Shown here in pieces: positions 7,480 to 18,330 of a DNA stretch of 20,156 nt (position 1 is its first letter; every line of letters begins with the position of its first letter). Position numbers and translations under genes: made by a program. The notes under the pieces are model-generated. The model searched no databases and had not been told where the DNA came from. It worked only from the letters and a program-made list of their open reading frames with translations. The stretch is from a virus: the IMG/VR virus record IMGVR_UViG_3300009172_000097, positions 1-20,156 of that record; one strand, 5' to 3'.

Positions 7480-8163
7480 ATGGCAAACAGCGTATTAGTT
7501 ATTGCTGATTCAGGGACAGGAAAGTCTACCTCAATCAGAACATTAGATCCAAAAGAGACTTTTATTATAAATATAGCTAACAAACCTTTACCGTTTAGAG
7601 GTTGGAAGGGCAAGTACACTCAGATAACAAAAGATCATCCAAAAGGAAATCTAACATCTGCAGCTACTGCACCTGGTATCATTAAAGCAATGAAGCATGT
7701 AAATGATAAGATGGGCCATATCAAAACTATTGTAGTTGATGATTGGCAATATATGAGTTCTTTTGAATATTTTGATAGAGCACATGAGAAAGGATATGAA
7801 AAGTTTACACAGATTGCTGCTAACTTGGCCATGGTTGCTAAGTTACCTAAAGATCTAAGAGAAGACTTAAATATTATTTTCTTAACTCATTCAGAAGATT
7901 CAACTGATTTAAATGGAAACAGAAAAGTTAAAGCAAAAACTATTGGTAAGATGATAGATAATACTTTAACTTTGGAGGGTCTATTTTCAATAGTGTTGTT
8001 TGGTAAAGTAAATAAATTAGATGATGGTGAACTTGAATACGGTTTTGAAACTCAAAACAATGGAGAGAACACATGTAAATCACCAATGGGTATGTTTAAG
8101 GATAAATTTATTCCTAATGACCTGCAATTCGTAATAAGTTGTATTGAGGAATACAACAAATAA
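7480..8163 (+). CDS. Sak4-like RecA-fold ATPase
   Basis: Single-domain RecA-like NTPase of the AAA_24/Sak4 type, in phages a single-strand annealing or strand-exchange recombinase. Walker A GTGKS at residues 12-16, right at the N-terminus as is typical; Walker B IVVDDW at residues 84-89; and a FLTHSED segment near residue 134 consistent with the sensor region. The length (227 aa) suits the family. The next gene has features of an ssDNA-binding protein, the usual partner of Sak4, which strengthens the call. A generic phage NTP-binding protein remains possible. Confidence 0.78.
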   Translation: MANSVLVIADSGTGKSTSIRTLDPKETFIINIANKPLPFRGWKGKYTQITKDHPKGNLTSAATAPGIIKAMKHVNDKMGHIKTIVVDDWQYMSSFEYFDRAHEKGYEKFTQIAANLAMVAKLPKDLREDLNIIFLTHSEDSTDLNGNRKVKAKTIGKMIDNTLTLEGLFSIVLFGKVNKLDDGELEYGFETQNNGENTCKSPMGMFKDKFIPNDLQFVISCIEEYNK

Positions 8164-8860: not shown

Positions 8861-8876
8861 TATCCTTAATTAAAAG

Positions 8877-8912
8877 AATGGGCTCAGTATATTGCTGGGC
8901 CTATTTTTTTTT
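8877..8912 (+). terminator. Intrinsic terminator after the SSB-like gene
   Basis: Stem 8877-8887 pairs with 8895-8905 (core GGCTCAG with CTGGGCC, two G-U pairs in all) around a 7-nt loop, followed by nine T residues at 8904-8912. It ends the 4128-8860 transcription unit just before the primase promoter. Confidence 0.85.
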
Positions 8913-8922
8913 AATACATTTG
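8892..8922 (+). promoter_or_regulatory. Bacteroidota-type promoter (TTG-N20-TACATTTG)
   Basis: TTG at 8892-8894 lies in the loop and 3' edge of the terminator hairpin, and TACATTTG at 8915-8922 matches TAnnTTTG, with the same 20-nt spacing as the promoter at 4076. The primase ATG is at 8927, only 4 nt after the box, so the message would be leaderless or nearly so. Confidence 0.5.
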
Positions 8923-8926
8923 GTTT

Positions 8927-9904
8927 ATGTTTAACACAAAAAATATTGTAGGAGAAGGACATGACGTACCAAGCACTTGGATTTTTCAATATTACTTAGA
9001 CCTTCCTGAACAACTTACAGGACAAGACATAAAGATTAAATCAATATTTAATCCTAATGAACGTACTCCTAGTTTTTGCATATATGTAGATAAATCTATT
9101 ATGCAGTATAAGTTTAAAGACTTTTCAACAGGAAAAAGTGGTAATAAAATAGATTTAGTTAAGTTAGTTCTTAACCTGGAATTTCATGATGCTATGACAA
9201 GAATAGTATCAGATTATAATAAGCATGTAACGTCATCAGACTATATACAACACAAATTTCAACCAGAAACTAAGTGGGAAATTGATTTCATTAAAGAAAG
9301 AGGATGGACTACTGAAGATAGAAAGTTTTGGTTATCATTTAGAATAGGTCAAACCATGCTTAGCATGTATAATGTAAAACCTATTGATTATTACAATCTT
9401 ATCAAAGATGACTCAGGTGAAATAAGAAAGTTAACAATTGGTAGCAAATGGTGCTATGGTTACTTTGACAAAAGCGGTGAAGTTTATAAAATTTATCAAC
9501 CTTTTAGTAAGAAATACAAATTTTATAAAGCTAAATCATATCTACAGGGTAAAGATCAACTTAAATTTGATCAACCTTATTTAGTCATATGTTCTTCACT
9601 TAAAGACGCTATGTGTCTTAAAGGTATGGGGTATAACCTTGAAGTTATAGCTCCAGACTCAGAAAATACTATGATTAAACCTCATATAATTCAACATTTC
9701 AAAAAAAAATATAAGAAAGTAATAACACTTTTTGATAATGATGAGGCTGGCCTCAAGGCTGTAGAGAGATATGCTGATGCATATAAAATCAATGGATTTG
9801 TACTAACTATATGTAAAGACATATCAGACGCTATGAAGTCACATGGTTTTGATAAGGTTCATGCAATGTTAAAACCATTATTAAAAGAAACATTAAATAA
9901 ATAA
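8927..9904 (+). CDS. DnaG-like (TOPRIM) DNA primase
   Basis: Would make RNA primers for the phage fork. The N-terminal 80 residues follow the layout of the CHC2 zinc domain (NPNERTPSF, then KFKDFSTGKSGNKIDLV) but the zinc-binding Cys and His are gone. The TOPRIM domain covers about residues 218-310: DNDEAG at 270-275 and KDISDAM near 298 are kept, while the expected Glu of the first motif (EGxxD in the family) is Ser223 in SSLKD. Length 325 aa is short for a primase, with no helicase-binding domain obvious. The ATG is only 4 nt after a -7 box, so translation may begin on a leaderless message. Primase is the best fit; loss of the Glu leaves activity uncertain. Confidence 0.8.
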   Translation: MFNTKNIVGEGHDVPSTWIFQYYLDLPEQLTGQDIKIKSIFNPNERTPSFCIYVDKSIMQYKFKDFSTGKSGNKIDLVKLVLNLEFHDAMTRIVSDYNKHVTSSDYIQHKFQPETKWEIDFIKERGWTTEDRKFWLSFRIGQTMLSMYNVKPIDYYNLIKDDSGEIRKLTIGSKWCYGYFDKSGEVYKIYQPFSKKYKFYKAKSYLQGKDQLKFDQPYLVICSSLKDAMCLKGMGYNLEVIAPDSENTMIKPHIIQHFKKKYKKVITLFDNDEAGLKAVERYADAYKINGFVLTICKDISDAMKSHGFDKVHAMLKPLLKETLNK

Positions 9905-10698: not shown

Positions 10699-10908
10699 AT
10701 GGAATTATATAACGTACCTAGAAATAGTAGAATAAAAGTGGTTACTCAAGATAAAGTACCACCCGGAGCTCCGCCCGTTGATGAAGGAGAAGAACTTAAT
10801 TTTAGATCTATAGATGGAATGTATAGTTACTGCACTAGAAATAATGGTGAAGTAGTACATTTAGTAGCATGGACTGAAGTAGAAATAATAAAAGACTATG
10901 TCAAATAA
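10699..10908 (+). CDS. Hypothetical small beta-rich protein (69 aa)
   Basis: Sequence MELYNVPRNSRIKV, a Pro-rich acidic loop, then FRSIDGMYSYC and GEVVHLVAWTEVEII gives a small beta-barrel look (SH3-like by strand pattern only). Similar short proteins are, from memory, common in Bacteroidota phages near RusA-like genes, without a known role. It overlaps the RusA-like gene by 11 nt. Confidence 0.62.
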   Translation: MELYNVPRNSRIKVVTQDKVPPGAPPVDEGEELNFRSIDGMYSYCTRNNGEVVHLVAWTEVEIIKDYVK

Positions 10909-11275
10909 AAAATGGTGGATACCAGGAAATGTACCTTCTAGTAAAAACGGAAGAAGATGGACAGGTAAATACTTTATTGCTAGCAAAGCTGTAATGACTT
11001 ATAGGAAAGCAACTAAAGATATTTATGCTGAATATACTGAAGAGTTTAAAAAGGAATTAGAAAACCATGAACTTCCAGTAAAAATATCTTTTGAATTTGT
11101 TAGAGGCAGCCGCCATAAATTTGACTATCTAAACCCTGCACAAACAGTACAGGATGATATGGTTAAGTATGGTTGGATTGAAGATGACAATGCTGAATTT
11201 ATAATTCCTGCATTTGAGCAATACACTTATAGTAAAGAAAACCCAGGAGTATGGATAGAGATCCTATCAAAATAA
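10898..11275 (+). CDS. RusA-like Holliday junction resolvase homolog (125 aa)
   Basis: RusA-family size and layout: an N-terminal GNVPSSKNGRR segment and the core FDYLNPAQTVQDDM (75-88) then IEDDNAE (94-100). In RusA the core reads D-x-D-N-x-x-K and is followed by a paired Asp; here Asp76 is kept, but the second Asp is Leu78 and the Lys is Gln82, while Asp86, Asp96 and Asp97 remain. It would resolve four-way junctions or trim branched DNA before packaging, if active. The altered residues make reduced or altered catalysis possible. Starts inside the preceding gene by 11 nt and overlaps the next by 25 nt. Confidence 0.8.
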   Translation: MSNKKWWIPGNVPSSKNGRRWTGKYFIASKAVMTYRKATKDIYAEYTEEFKKELENHELPVKISFEFVRGSRHKFDYLNPAQTVQDDMVKYGWIEDDNAEFIIPAFEQYTYSKENPGVWIEILSK

Positions 11276-11544
11276 TTGAATTAGAAGAATTCTTTAAGTT
11301 AAAAGAAATGTTTCAAGGCCTGCCTGATGATCAGGAATTGGCATGGGTAATTTATGAAAATAACTATAAAGATGACACAGCTGATTTATTAATGCATAAA
11401 GCATTAGTATTTAAAAACAGAAAAAAGTTTGCTGATGCTGTAAAATTCATTGATACACCAATACTTGGCAAACAACAATTATATATTTATATAGAAGAAA
11501 AGAAAATGCATTCTATTTATAAAAAAATATTAGATAAATTATGA
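11251..11544 (+). CDS. Hypothetical helical protein (97 aa)
   Basis: Overlaps the RusA-like gene by 25 nt in another frame. Acidic N-terminal helix (IKIIELEEFFKLKEMF), then a mainly helical body with an amphipathic KNRKKFADAVKF segment and a LDKL end. No motif recognised. Its stop overlaps an ATGA that opens a three-codon frame leading to the next gene. Confidence 0.62.
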   Translation: MDRDPIKIIELEEFFKLKEMFQGLPDDQELAWVIYENNYKDDTADLLMHKALVFKNRKKFADAVKFIDTPILGKQQLYIYIEEKKMHSIYKKILDKL

Positions 11545-11548
11545 AAAC

Positions 11549-12712
11549 ATGATTAATATTCAAGATCAGGTTGCTAGATCAACCAAAAGTTTAATATTTA
11601 CAGAGCCCTTTTACGGGCTCTTTTTAATTGGTATCAATAAACAATACAGTGAGCATATTTCTACAGCAGGAGTAAGCATGCGTGGTATTGGTATGCAATT
11701 GACAATAAACCCTGAGTTCTTTAATGGACTGAGTGAAGACCACAGATTTGGTTTAATAAAACATGAACTATTGCATATTGCATTTGGTCATCTATTATTA
11801 AGAGATCTATATTCTAATCATAAACTATTTAATATAGCTGCTGATTTAGAAATAAACCAGTACATACTGGAAAGTAAATTACCTGACGGTGGTTTATTAT
11901 TATCAAGTTTTCCTGAACTAAATCTTCCTACTAAAGCAGGTACTAAAAAGTACTATGAGCTTTTAGAACAGGCACAAAAAGATGGGTCTTCTCCATCATT
12001 AGGTAACCTAATGGACCAGATGGATGGTAATAGCCAACATTGTCATAGTACATGGGAAGAGTTTGATGCATTACCTGAAGCAGATAAAAAGTTAGTTCAA
12101 AAACAAATTGAACATCAATTAAAAGAAGCCGCTGAACAAACAGAAAAGAAACAAGGATCTATTCCTGGTGAGTTATCTGATCTTATACACAGGCTTATGC
12201 ACATTGAACCTGCAAAGTTTGATTGGAAAGGTTATTTAAGAAGATTTGTTGGTAATTCAAGTATTGTGTTTACTAAAAAGTTGAGACGTAAGTATAACAA
12301 ACGTTATTCTGGTAGTCCAGGCTTAAAAATTAAATTCAAAAATCACATTCTTGTTGGTGTTGACACAAGTGGATCTGTAAATAATGAAGAACTAAAAGAA
12401 TTTTTTAGTGAGCTTACGCATATGCATAAAACAGGTCATAAAATTACAGTAGCACAATGTGACACCCGCTTAGTAAGCGTGGAAGAATTTAAACCTAAAA
12501 AAGATTGGGAAATACACGGTCGTGGTGGAACTAGTTTTCAACCAGTAATTGACCACTTTAATGAAAAGAAAGGAGTTTATACAGCTCTAGTATATCTAAC
12601 AGATGGTGAAGCATATAATCCAGATAACTGTCCTAAGAATACCTTATGGGTTCTTAGTAGTATATCTAATATGAATAATGAGTTACCAGGACAAGTAATT
12701 AAATTAAATTAA
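11549..12712 (+). CDS. VWA-domain protein with metallopeptidase-like N-terminal domain (DUF2201 type)
   Basis: Two-part protein (387 aa). The N-terminal part has the zinc-protease-like HELLHIAFGH at residues 72-81, preceded by EPFYGLFL and INPEFF segments typical of this family. A Gln/Glu/Lys-rich helix covers about 170-200. The C-terminal part is a von Willebrand A domain: MIDAS motif DTSGS from residue 272, the GRGGTSF threonine loop near 330 and LTDGEA near 352. Proteins of this kind work with a MoxR-type ATPase, which is the next gene, 6 nt away. The substrate is unknown; the peptidase role is a family label, not proven. Codons 18-26 coincide with a strong terminator hairpin. The start is taken before it because the N-terminal segment fits the family. 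Confidence 0.85.
   Translation: MINIQDQVARSTKSLIFTEPFYGLFLIGINKQYSEHISTAGVSMRGIGMQLTINPEFFNGLSEDHRFGLIKHELLHIAFGHLLLRDLYSNHKLFNIAADLEINQYILESKLPDGGLLLSSFPELNLPTKAGTKKYYELLEQAQKDGSSPSLGNLMDQMDGNSQHCHSTWEEFDALPEADKKLVQKQIEHQLKEAAEQTEKKQGSIPGELSDLIHRLMHIEPAKFDWKGYLRRFVGNSSIVFTKKLRRKYNKRYSGSPGLKIKFKNHILVGVDTSGSVNNEELKEFFSELTHMHKTGHKITVAQCDTRLVSVEEFKPKKDWEIHGRGGTSFQPVIDHFNEKKGVYTALVYLTDGEAYNPDNCPKNTLWVLSSISNMNNELPGQVIKLN
11602..11625 (+). terminator. Terminator-like hairpin inside the VWA coding region
   Basis: AGAGCCC (11602-11608), a 6-nt loop and GGGCTCT (11615-11621) form a perfect 7-bp stem running into five T residues (11621-11625). The 3' arm GGGCT followed by T resembles the terminator ending at 18330. 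It lies 53 nt into the VWA gene and 58 nt past the previous stop. Confidence 0.7.
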
Positions 12713-12718
12713 TAGAAA

Positions 12719-13990
12719 ATGGCACAAGTAAATTTAAATGTAACAGAATTAAAAGGATTTGTAAATCACATAATTACAAACAATAGATTTTTGCAAGAAG
12801 ATGGTAAACAATCTGTATCAATAGAAGTAGTAGGTGAATCAGGAATAGGTAAAACCTCATCTATTGTAGAAATTGCTCAAGAAAACAATCTTAAGTTTGT
12901 TAAATTAAACTTAGCTCAGATAGAAGAGTTAGGTGACTTAGTAGGTTTTCCTGTACGTCAATTTCAGATGTATAAAGAAAAAATAGTACAAGCAAAGAAA
13001 ATAGATGACCTTAGTTACACAGCGGCTCAAAGAGCTGCAGCATCAGCTGATATAGCAAATATGGCTACTCCTACTACAAAAAAAGTAGGTATGTGGGTTA
13101 ATGAACTTGCCGTACAAGAATATCTTAAAAATGGATACAAAATGACTGGGAAGAATAGGATGTCTTACTGTGCTCCTGAATGGATTGCAGATGCAAAAGC
13201 GGGTGGTATTTTATTATTAGATGACTGGAACCGTGCAGATACTAGATTTATTCAAGCAGTTATGGAATTGATTGACAGACAAACTTATATCTCATGGTCA
13301 TTACCAAAAGATTGGCATATAATTTTGACAGCAAACCCGGATAACGGAGACTATATGGTTAACAGTGTAGATAGTGCACAGAAGACTAGATATGTAACTG
13401 CTAACCTTAAGTTTGATGTTAACATATGGGCTCAGTGGGCAGAGAGTGCTGGAATAGATACTAGATGTATTAACTTCTTATTGCTTCATCCTGAATTAGT
13501 AACGCAAGAAACTAATGCAAGATCAATTACTACATTCTTTAATGCTATTTCAAGTTTTGAAAAGTTTGAATATAACTTAAGTTTGATACAAATGATTGGT
13601 GAGGGTAGTGTAGGAGATGAGTTTGCATCTATGTTTACAACTTTTATTAATAACAAACTAGATAAGTTAGTAACACCAAAAGATTTATTAACTCATGAAA
13701 ATGAATCATATATTTTAGGTGAACTAAGAGGATCTATTGGTCAAGATGATACATACCGTGCAGATATTGCTGCAACGTTAGCTACTAGGCTTGGTAATTA
13801 TGCTGTTGTATACTCTAAAGAGAATACAGTTAGCCAGAAAATTACAGATAGGTTAAAAGCTTTATGTACTAAAGATTATTTTACTAATGATCTTAAGTAT
13901 TTAGTTGTACGTACAATCTTTAATGGTAATAAAAAGAAGTTTAACAAATTAATGATGATTCCAGAAATTATCAAAATGACAATGAAATAA
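12719..13990 (+). CDS. MoxR-type AAA+ ATPase
   Basis: AAA+ ATPase of 423 residues. Walker A GESGIGKT at residues 39-46, Walker B ILLLDDW near 162-168, sensor 1 LTANPDN near 202-208, and a long helical C-terminal part with an Asn-Lys-rich end. The GILLLDDWNRAD segment followed by the AVMELIDRQ helix is the usual arrangement of MoxR-like proteins, in which the ATPase acts as a chaperone with a VWA partner. The VWA gene ends 6 nt upstream, so the two are expressed together. An insert between the first strands and Walker B (about 80-150) is larger than in a minimal ATPase. Target unknown. Confidence 0.85.
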   Translation: MAQVNLNVTELKGFVNHIITNNRFLQEDGKQSVSIEVVGESGIGKTSSIVEIAQENNLKFVKLNLAQIEELGDLVGFPVRQFQMYKEKIVQAKKIDDLSYTAAQRAAASADIANMATPTTKKVGMWVNELAVQEYLKNGYKMTGKNRMSYCAPEWIADAKAGGILLLDDWNRADTRFIQAVMELIDRQTYISWSLPKDWHIILTANPDNGDYMVNSVDSAQKTRYVTANLKFDVNIWAQWAESAGIDTRCINFLLLHPELVTQETNARSITTFFNAISSFEKFEYNLSLIQMIGEGSVGDEFASMFTTFINNKLDKLVTPKDLLTHENESYILGELRGSIGQDDTYRADIAATLATRLGNYAVVYSKENTVSQKITDRLKALCTKDYFTNDLKYLVVRTIFNGNKKKFNKLMMIPEIIKMTMK

Positions 13991-14095: not shown

Positions 14096-15136
14096 ATGGC
14101 AAATAAATCAGTATATCAAGATTTTGATACTGATGCTTTAATTCACTTTGGATTAGAACAGGACACTATTTATGGTGTCCTTTCTACTTCAGGGGAAATA
14201 GATAAAGTATTATGTACTCAAGATAAAACTACATATGAAAAAATAAGCACTATACTAACAGTACCAACGGAAGACGGTACTACTTTTATAACCAAAAAGA
14301 AAGCTTTTATATTACCTAAGTGTACTGTATCTCAGGATAGATTAAAAGCAGCTCTTAAAGAGCACGGTATAACTGTAACAAATGATTATACATTAGCAGA
14401 TTTAATTATAGGGCATGAAGAAATAGAAGGTGGTACATTATCAAACGCTGATAATATTCCTTCTACATTAATGCTAAATAAACTATGGAATTATGAAACT
14501 ACTAAAGGTAGGAATCATGCAACTCATTCTAAAGAAATAGCAATTTACAACTCAGGATTAGAAGTTATAGTAACTCCTAAGCTGACAGAAACTGTGAGAT
14601 ACTATGATTTAGATATTGAAAATAGTCTTTATGATGAGTGGATGTTAACAGGTATGGCTGTTAATTTAGCTCATATAATTGACACTACTGATGTAAGTGT
14701 AATTGATCCTGAAACAGTACTTCATAGTTCTGCAAGTAAAATGGTTCTTGATGAGCAACTTCTTAGTGATCTAAAAGTACAGTTGAAATCTTATGGTGAT
14801 GATAAAGCTTTAGCTCTTAAAATTATACCTACAATAGATTACAAGAAAAATTATCATTTGTTGTGGCAGTTTGCACAAGATTGTAGTAATATTACTTATG
14901 CAGATAATAGGGATAAGGATTTAAAGTATTGGATTGAAGCATCTAAATTTACTTCATTTGAAAGAAAAAGTGCTCAGGACATGATACTTTGGTTAGAAGA
15001 AAATGAATATCTATGTAATACAAGCTTTAGATATCTAGAACCTATTGTAAGAAGAGAAATAAGTATAAATAACCGTGATCTTTACACATTTAAAGTAGCA
15101 GTTAAAAAAGAATATCAAAAATATTTAAAAAGATGA
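14096..15136 (+). CDS. Large hypothetical protein, tandem paralog A (346 aa)
   Basis: Unrecognised. Residues 70-110 show a compact alpha/beta unit ending HGITVTNDYTLADLIIG. The second half is helical and includes DKALALKIIPTIDYKKNYHL (about 239-258). The same two landmarks, in the same order, occur in the next gene (RVIRDEKKADVSIV and NRSLALEMLANCNIEKSF), so the pair look like strongly diverged duplicates. No catalytic motif seen. The stop overlaps the next start by ATGA. A GC-containing hairpin lies 64 nt inside the gene. Location after the MoxR/VWA pair suggests, but does not prove, a link to it. Confidence 0.65.
   Translation: MANKSVYQDFDTDALIHFGLEQDTIYGVLSTSGEIDKVLCTQDKTTYEKISTILTVPTEDGTTFITKKKAFILPKCTVSQDRLKAALKEHGITVTNDYTLADLIIGHEEIEGGTLSNADNIPSTLMLNKLWNYETTKGRNHATHSKEIAIYNSGLEVIVTPKLTETVRYYDLDIENSLYDEWMLTGMAVNLAHIIDTTDVSVIDPETVLHSSASKMVLDEQLLSDLKVQLKSYGDDKALALKIIPTIDYKKNYHLLWQFAQDCSNITYADNRDKDLKYWIEASKFTSFERKSAQDMILWLEENEYLCNTSFRYLEPIVRREISINNRDLYTFKVAVKKEYQKYLKR
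14160..14182 (+). other. Hairpin inside the 14096 gene
   Basis: AGGACAC and GTGTCCT form a perfect 7-bp stem around an 8-nt loop (TATTTATG ends it), with a short T-rich tract after it (TTTCTACTT). It lies 64 nt past the start codon, similar in position to the hairpin in the VWA gene, but the T tract is interrupted, so termination is doubtful. Confidence 0.35.
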
Positions 15137-17267: not shown

Positions 17268-17843
17268 ATGGGAGTATACACTGAGTATTTTCAAAAAAGT
17301 AAAGTATTTCTTTATCCTTTACTAAAAATAAGGAAAGGCATAGCCCATGTTCCCATACAAACGTATGTGGCATGGGATAATGTCTATTCTCCAAATGATC
17401 TTAAATTTTTTTGTGAATATAAAACTAAAAAAACCAGGCTTTTTGAAAAGTTTGCTAAAGATTATTTATTAGGACATCCTCTTTTTGAAGAAGCAATTGA
17501 ATTAAATCAAGACACACAATTATTTATTTATGACTTTTCTGAATACAAAACTGATTTTAAAAAATTTCTTGAAGGAAAATACTCTCAGTTTACATTAGAC
17601 AGTAAAGTTAATATATTAGATTTCTTTGGTAATAAAGAACTTATTTCAGGTTATGTAGAAGGATTTTTACAACCAGAAGGAGTGCATGATGAATATGCAA
17701 AAACATTAGCTGTAGATGTAGAAAATATACAAGATATATATGAAGTATGCACACCTCCAGATATTAACAAAGAAACTTTAGTTGATAATAATCACATTAT
17801 TGATCAATTATTAAAAAATAGTTCCATATATTTGACAAAATAA
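17268..17843 (+). CDS. Hypothetical protein after the nuclease (191 aa)
   Basis: One nucleotide after the nuclease stop. Begins MGVYTEYFQKSKVFLYPLL, with a beta-rich N-terminus, a helical middle (KKTRLFEKFAKDYLLGHPLFEEAIEL) and an acidic C-terminal part. No motif recognised. Coupling to the nuclease suggests an accessory role. A hairpin of two short stems (17344-17376) lies near the 5' end. Confidence 0.65.
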   Translation: MGVYTEYFQKSKVFLYPLLKIRKGIAHVPIQTYVAWDNVYSPNDLKFFCEYKTKKTRLFEKFAKDYLLGHPLFEEAIELNQDTQLFIYDFSEYKTDFKKFLEGKYSQFTLDSKVNILDFFGNKELISGYVEGFLQPEGVHDEYAKTLAVDVENIQDIYEVCTPPDINKETLVDNNHIIDQLLKNSSIYLTK

Positions 17844-18304: not shown

Positions 18305-18330
18305 AAAGCTCATTGATTTGGGCTTTTTTT
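18305..18330 (+). terminator. Intrinsic terminator before the polymerase gene
   Basis: AAAGCTC (18305-18311) pairs with GGGCTTT (18320-18326), one G-U pair, around an 8-nt loop, followed by seven T residues (18324-18330). It separates the 17852 gene from the polymerase. No clear TTG-N20-TAnnTTTG promoter was found in the remaining 26 nt, so some transcripts may read through. Confidence 0.78.

Follow-up and report, generated by a model that had tools for sequence, protein, structure and literature searches.

The VWA gene of an uncultured virus carries, close to its start, a small hairpin (HP2) that, to judge from the codons of its relatives, is a real and deeply conserved RNA element in coding sequence. 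Together with the T-rich tail behind it, HP2 would form a partial-strength intrinsic (Rho-independent) terminator that attenuates expression of the VWA gene and the ATPase gene that follows, a reading to which we assign a probability of about 0.72. Nested in the opening 84 nt of VWA coding sequence, the terminator would end some of the transcripts that come from the upstream unit (primase, RusA, small ORF). Because HP2 lies downstream of the VWA start codon, a full-length VWA message from any promoter would have to read through it. VWA expression would thus depend on read-through, as would that of the ATPase gene unless it has a promoter of its own, and through this attenuator the VWA-ATPase pair would be expressed less, or later, than the replication genes. 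Read-through could be set by ribosome coupling, by a phage antiterminator or by simple leakiness.

The window, a viral contig of 20,156 bases with a G+C content of 29.6%, carries the genes described here on its plus strand. The VWA gene (11549-12712; the A of its ATG is 11549) encodes a 387-aa protein with a DUF2201 metallopeptidase-like and a VWA-like domain. It matches PHROG 1314 and, in Pfam, PF13203 (the DUF2201_N part; 66.3 bits, cut-off 23.2, 4e-18) and PF09967 (the VWA-like DUF2201 part; 61.5 bits, cut-off 26.4, 1e-16). Its frame is kept in all homologs, which together with the DUF2201 match indicates that the hairpin segment is coding, and bears out the original prediction that the hairpin encodes EPFYGLFL of a DUF2201-type protein. 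A late start codon downstream of the hairpin was rejected, the N-terminus M.NIQD.VA being conserved. Six nucleotides past the VWA stop begins the gene for a putative AAA+ ATPase of 423 aa (12719-13990), called MoxR in the original prediction; its product had no Pfam hit and only a PHROG match, to the ATPase family 1297 (7e-35). A DUF2201 VWA/ATPase gene pair of the same protein family is found in N4-like and other phages (PHROG 1314 and 1297), and VWA homologs in sequenced cultured phages are just ~30% identical. Synonymous sites are unusually conserved in the first codons of the ATPase gene (12719-12745) and of gene 14096 (14096-14134).

Upstream of VWA, the ORF list gives a small variable ORF of 97 aa (11251-11544) whose homologs are 33-79% identical; the VWA ATG lies 4 nt from its stop in the window, and the two overlap in many relatives. 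Farther upstream are genes for a RusA-like Holliday junction resolvase (10898-11275; PHROG 1682, 2e-19) and a DNA primase (8927-9904; PHROG 12622, with Toprim and Zn-ribbon Pfam hits). We presume that the RusA gene belongs to one transcription unit with the primase, and that the primase is the first gene of the unit that meets the VWA hairpin. Ahead of the primase, the terminator scan found an intergenic terminator (8872-8910) that served as our reference design; relatives have different stems at this site. Reading of the sequence places a further terminator-like intergenic hairpin ahead of the DNA polymerase gene (18305-18326). In the Sak4-like gene (7480-8163), synonymous sites are more conserved at positions 8008-8097 (codons 177-206; kappa up to 0.94) than anywhere else in the region. 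This segment has no strong fold, does not overlap any long alternative ORF and could contain a promoter or a signal for replication or packaging.

Just upstream of the primase, TACATTTG (8915-8922, plus strand) matches the Bacteroidota -7 element TAHHTTTG, as a consensus match rather than a mapped promoter, with ~9.5 matches per strand expected by chance in the window. A match lies ~20 nt ahead of the primase ATG in 18 of 63 relatives; around the VWA start there were just six scattered matches in 72, and no conserved match was present at VWA, RusA, the ATPase gene or 14096. Three distant relatives (L247, L256 and L215) carry TTTGGC followed by TATATTTA, a promoter-like arrangement, upstream of VWA, and in two of these a strong hairpin, for instance GGCCCCTCAGGGGCC, overlaps the upstream part. 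Shine-Dalgarno sites were found at 2% of genes, against 4% in the control, and gene leaders are A-rich, with peaks at -3 and at -11 to -13. A-rich leaders without Shine-Dalgarno sites are known for Flavobacterium (PMC6847099), and by this analogy the host is likely to belong to the Bacteroidota. No phage RNA polymerase was recognised among eight proteins, mostly from large ORFs, of the relative G001 (115,836 bases); one of them, a predicted protein of 3326 aa (ORF L278:5604-15584), had no PHROG or Pfam match.

HP2 (11602-11621, plus strand) consists of the stem AGAGCCC/GGGCTCT, with five G-C among its 7 bp, and the 6-nt loop TTTTAC. It runs from the third base of VWA codon 18 to the first base of codon 25, beginning 53 nt into the gene and 57 nt past the previous stop codon. 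Here the original prediction had placed a perfect stem followed by five T; stem and position stand, but the first of the five T after GGGCTC is the last base of the stem, and four T follow the 7 bp, then AATT. The T-rich tail TTTTAATTGGT (11622-11632, plus strand) covers codons 25-28; directly 3' of the stem the window reads TTTTAATT, and the tract holds 7 T in 9 nt in 11 of 11 genomes. The HP2 pattern occurs once in the window and in none of 100 shuffles, and no further copies of the stem were found in ten long relatives. The window gave no match at the Rfam gathering score, and the tRNA scan returned nothing. A programmed frameshift at C TTT TTA was rejected, as the hairpin precedes the tract and the -1 frame, read from the sequence, soon meets a stop.

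The stem was present in all 80 IMG/VR relatives of a first search (protein identity 82-92%). A peptide scan blind to codons reached at least about a hundred distinct marine phage sequences, and every sequence listed had the stem except the homolog L121, which belongs to a different branch; among the matches listed, HP2 is kept in 94 of 94 distinct in-clade sequences. For comparison we used 48 homologs, 41-75% identical, that have the same peptide without GGG; as this set was selected for the absence of GGG, its Gly codon is not independent evidence, whereas its other codons are. In a recoding test, each sequence was rewritten with synonymous codons at the usage of the VWA gene itself and then folded. 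The mean fold energy at HP2 was -11.46 kcal/mol as observed and -3.56 after recoding, a difference significant in all 94 listed in-clade sequences, compared with only 2 of the 48 in the comparison set. One could argue that HP2 has no RNA function and that the peptide EPFYGLFL and codon bias give the hairpin by accident, since the peptide is conserved in distant relatives that have no hairpin. Yet those relatives encode EPFYGLFLIG with GAA/CCA/TAT/GGT/TTG and form no stem, and HP2 is therefore not a by-product of the protein. The stem also draws on codons that are rare in the VWA gene (GGG, CCC/CCT and CTC/CTT; in the dereplicated set, CTC accounts for 4% of Leu codons, CCC for 9% of Pro codons and GGG for 12% of Gly codons). 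With the uniform outcome of the recoding test added, we find the accident hardly credible.

The tail shows a similar bias. Codon 25 is TTT in 94 of 94 listed in-clade sequences versus 24 of 48 in the comparison set, codon 26 is TTA or TTG in 93 of 94 versus 23 of 48, codon 27 is ATT in 93 of 94 versus 32 of 48, and the tail codon GGT is used in 91 of 94 versus 28 of 48. The T-tail stands at the maximum that amino-acid limits allow, and the block of synonymous constraint in VWA stops at codon 29. On this codon evidence the tail is selected as strongly as the stem, which speaks against a bare hairpin.

The level at which selection acts was read from a tree of 83 VWA genes, built from codon 31 onwards. 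The Glu codon GAG of HP2 did not change on the tree, while nine other invariant Glu codons changed 4-22 times each; the Gly codon GGG was likewise without change, against 2-27 changes at other invariant Gly codons. That mutations do occur at the site is shown by 14 changes of the loop codon TAC/TAT; the loop codon TTT did not change. All changes in the stem were between C and T (CCC<->CCT six times, CTC<->CTT 11 times), and after each of these 17 events the bases can still pair in the sense transcript, as U.G or G.U. The reciprocal changes GAG->GAA and GGG->GGA, tolerable on the other strand, occurred 0 times on the same tree. As the stem tolerates only changes that keep wobble pairs in the sense RNA, selection appears to act on the transcript. 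It could be supposed instead that HP2 is a DNA-level element, such as a cruciform or a replication or nuclease site, given that the inverted repeat is present in the DNA too and that the region encodes replication genes; a DNA stem, however, would be hurt equally by both kinds of change, and the count of 17 to 0 leaves this very improbable.

The original prediction had looked to homologs for conservation of both the residues and the stem, the latter with compensatory changes. Within the clade both are kept; the opposite pattern, residues kept and stem absent, is confined to the distant relatives. The alignment holds no compensatory double change in the HP2 stem, and none is to be expected, because hardly any pair can vary on both sides under the amino-acid constraint: among the six inner pairs only G57-C70 can, and its use would break the neighbouring pair. 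The informative signal in HP2 is, as we read the alignment, synonymous change limited to wobble.

The candidate terminator also stands out in a terminator scan of the window and ten long relatives (11 genomes, about 1 Mb). Outside sense ORFs there were 47 terminator-like hits (44 intergenic, three antisense); within an ORF on the sense strand there was exactly one per genome in all 11, always HP2. Across 420 nt spanning the VWA start, 62 of 62 in-clade sequences had a hairpin at the HP2 position and one had another besides, while none of 35 comparison sequences had a hairpin at that position. Three distant relatives have an intergenic terminator directly ahead of VWA instead. The majority of the comparison set is without any terminator near VWA, so the function would not be universal in the gene family. 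In stem and tail HP2 resembles the intergenic terminators of the same genomes, and the design that it had been said to share with the terminators at 8877 and 18305 holds. Its strength is another matter, and tells against the terminator reading: the stem, at -8.8 to -12.8 kcal/mol, is weaker than the intergenic median of -16.8 and falls in the lower range of the intergenic ones, and the T run is just five.

Position agrees with termination. HP2 had been described as lying where a terminator of the upstream gene would be expected, and the upstream stop is indeed 45-64 nt ahead of the stem in 91 of 93 relatives. Work in E. coli (Li et al., PMC4824070) found that a terminator within 100 bp of the start of a coding region is efficient, as the ribosome has not yet coupled, and that a hairpin escapes masking once the stop codon is more than about 27-30 nt ahead of it. 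Lying 45-64 nt past a stop and within the first 100 bp, HP2 is thus placed as a working terminator would be. What one would expect by default from these findings is that HP2 terminates with partial read-through rather than being opened automatically by ribosomes; that RNA polymerase terminates at HP2, and to what extent, we infer from sequence features.

Ahead of HP2 lies a second hairpin, HP1 (11569-11584, plus strand; GGTTG-CTAGAT-CAACC, VWA codons 7-12), identified by covariation. Among 73 sequences its outer pair 21-36 is G-C in 36, A-U in 26 and G-U in four, and its inner pair 24-33 is U-A in 64 and A-U in two. Doubly changed cells numbered 28, compared with 10.7 +- 3.7 in shuffles and reached in 0 of 500, though the shuffle controls kinship incompletely. 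HP1 folds better than synonymously recoded sequence. In a few relatives the stem is shifted instead, and by eye some distant relatives too have hairpins at this place; the in-clade pairing fails to hold across the comparison set. HP1 probably belongs to the same device as HP2, where it might for instance serve for pausing or recognition.

HP1 also enters a reading in which a real terminator is opened when ribosomes translating VWA follow closely on the polymerase, HP1 synchronising the two; VWA-ATPase expression would then report translation efficiency. An upstream stop near or overlapping the VWA ATG would favour the re-initiation that this needs, HP1 is a conserved hairpin preceding a terminator, and intrinsic terminators in coding sequence can be suppressed by coupled ribosomes (PMC5021804). 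Against it, E. coli terminators within the first 100 bp are little suppressed, as coupling is not established (PMC4824070), and no antiterminator fold was found. The candidate pairing around HP2, ACYAA (columns 34-38) with TTGGT (80-84), was rejected; it is paired in 98.9% but has no covariation and lies past the T-tail. We therefore regard opening by closely following ribosomes as unlikely.

HP2 is not the only hairpin of its kind. In a synonymous-recoding fold scan (65 gene families, 6,970 windows), three in-gene hairpins stood far above the rest: HP2, one in gene 14096 and one in a small HNH endonuclease gene. The high-ranking in-gene hairpins, and a stem in gene 17268, start within about 40-75 nt of the start codon, and those of gene 14096, the HNH gene and 17268 have no clear T-tail. 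In gene 14096-15136 the hairpin (14155-14185, about codons 19-31, ~59 nt past the start) reads GGACAC-TATTTATG-GTGTCC. It has many compensatory variants (GACCC/GGGTC, CGGTATC/GGTATCG), folds to -13 to -20 kcal/mol in 34 of 34 relatives and encodes D[PT]xYG[VL], similar to the EPFYGL of the VWA hairpin. The HNH gene (L276:4904-5173, in G001) has at codons 13-25, near its start, a long conserved stem TTAAATACTGC...GCAGTATTTAA, which is the strongest outlier of the whole folding scan and is weaker in some relatives. Gene 17268-17843 has a covarying long stem at ~17336-17385, for example GCAGAC/GTCTGC in one relative and ACAAAC/GTTTGT in another, that is weaker in the scan.

Conserved in-gene hairpins without a T-tail (14096, the HNH gene) can serve other purposes, and it is mainly because of these that we do not hold the terminator reading more firmly. 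HP2 might likewise be an RNA signal other than a terminator: it could be bound by a protein of the phage or the host, direct RNase processing or govern stability, or form a structure that slows ribosomes. The covariation of HP1, the presence of such tail-less hairpins about 40-60 nt past the starts of other genes in the same block and the unchanged loop codon TTT would suit this idea, to which we give some weight while still considering it unlikely. The selection on the T-tail like that on the stem, with constraint ending at codon 29, the match of stem and tail to intergenic terminators of the same genomes and the freedom of the loop codon TAY to change (14 changes) all argue against it. More speculatively, HP1 and HP2 could form one compact regulatory RNA in coding sequence, in which a phage or host factor bound to HP1 lets polymerase pass and which, with the hairpins of 14096, the HNH gene and 17268, times the replication operon. 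The VWA-ATPase pair and the genes behind it would then be switched on at a set time; we think this doubtful.

Set beside known systems, the proposed terminator has familiar parts in an unfamiliar place. The lambda boxB and HK022 put sites are phage antitermination sites that make polymerase ignore downstream terminators. HP1 resembles them as a small hairpin upstream of a terminator in a phage transcript, a structural resemblance alone, and differs in lying inside coding sequence. The pyrBI and trp operons have intra-operon or leader attenuators. As there, polymerase would meet HP2 after the translation start and with a hairpin (HP1) ahead; unlike there, no leader peptide is present, since HP2 lies in a 387-aa gene, no antiterminator fold was found, and the ORF that carries HP2 would itself be regulated. 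Of these systems, pyrBI is discussed in PMC4824070. Mapping in E. coli has placed intrinsic terminators within ORFs (PMC7815308), and their action in coding sequence has been tested (PMC4824070). HP2 shares with them a G-C-rich stem, a short loop, a T-rich tail on the sense strand and a place ~50 nt past an upstream stop, and is unlike them in being nested at the start of a 387-aa gene, held by codon choice in about a hundred phage sequences and of moderate stem energy. Searches of the open-access literature found no described equivalent of the nested HP2, and distant relatives of the VWA gene, unlike the clade, are without it.

When a terminator-like hairpin is predicted within a gene, it is commonly put down to chance. 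Codon recoding combined with the direction of wobble offers a simple way to find nested signals in unculturable phage genomes, and HP2 is a clean natural test of terminator read-through in early coding sequence. Here the codon record points to one such hairpin being maintained for its RNA shape, in a real gene and across a large clade of uncultured phages, where it probably limits or times expression of the VWA gene.
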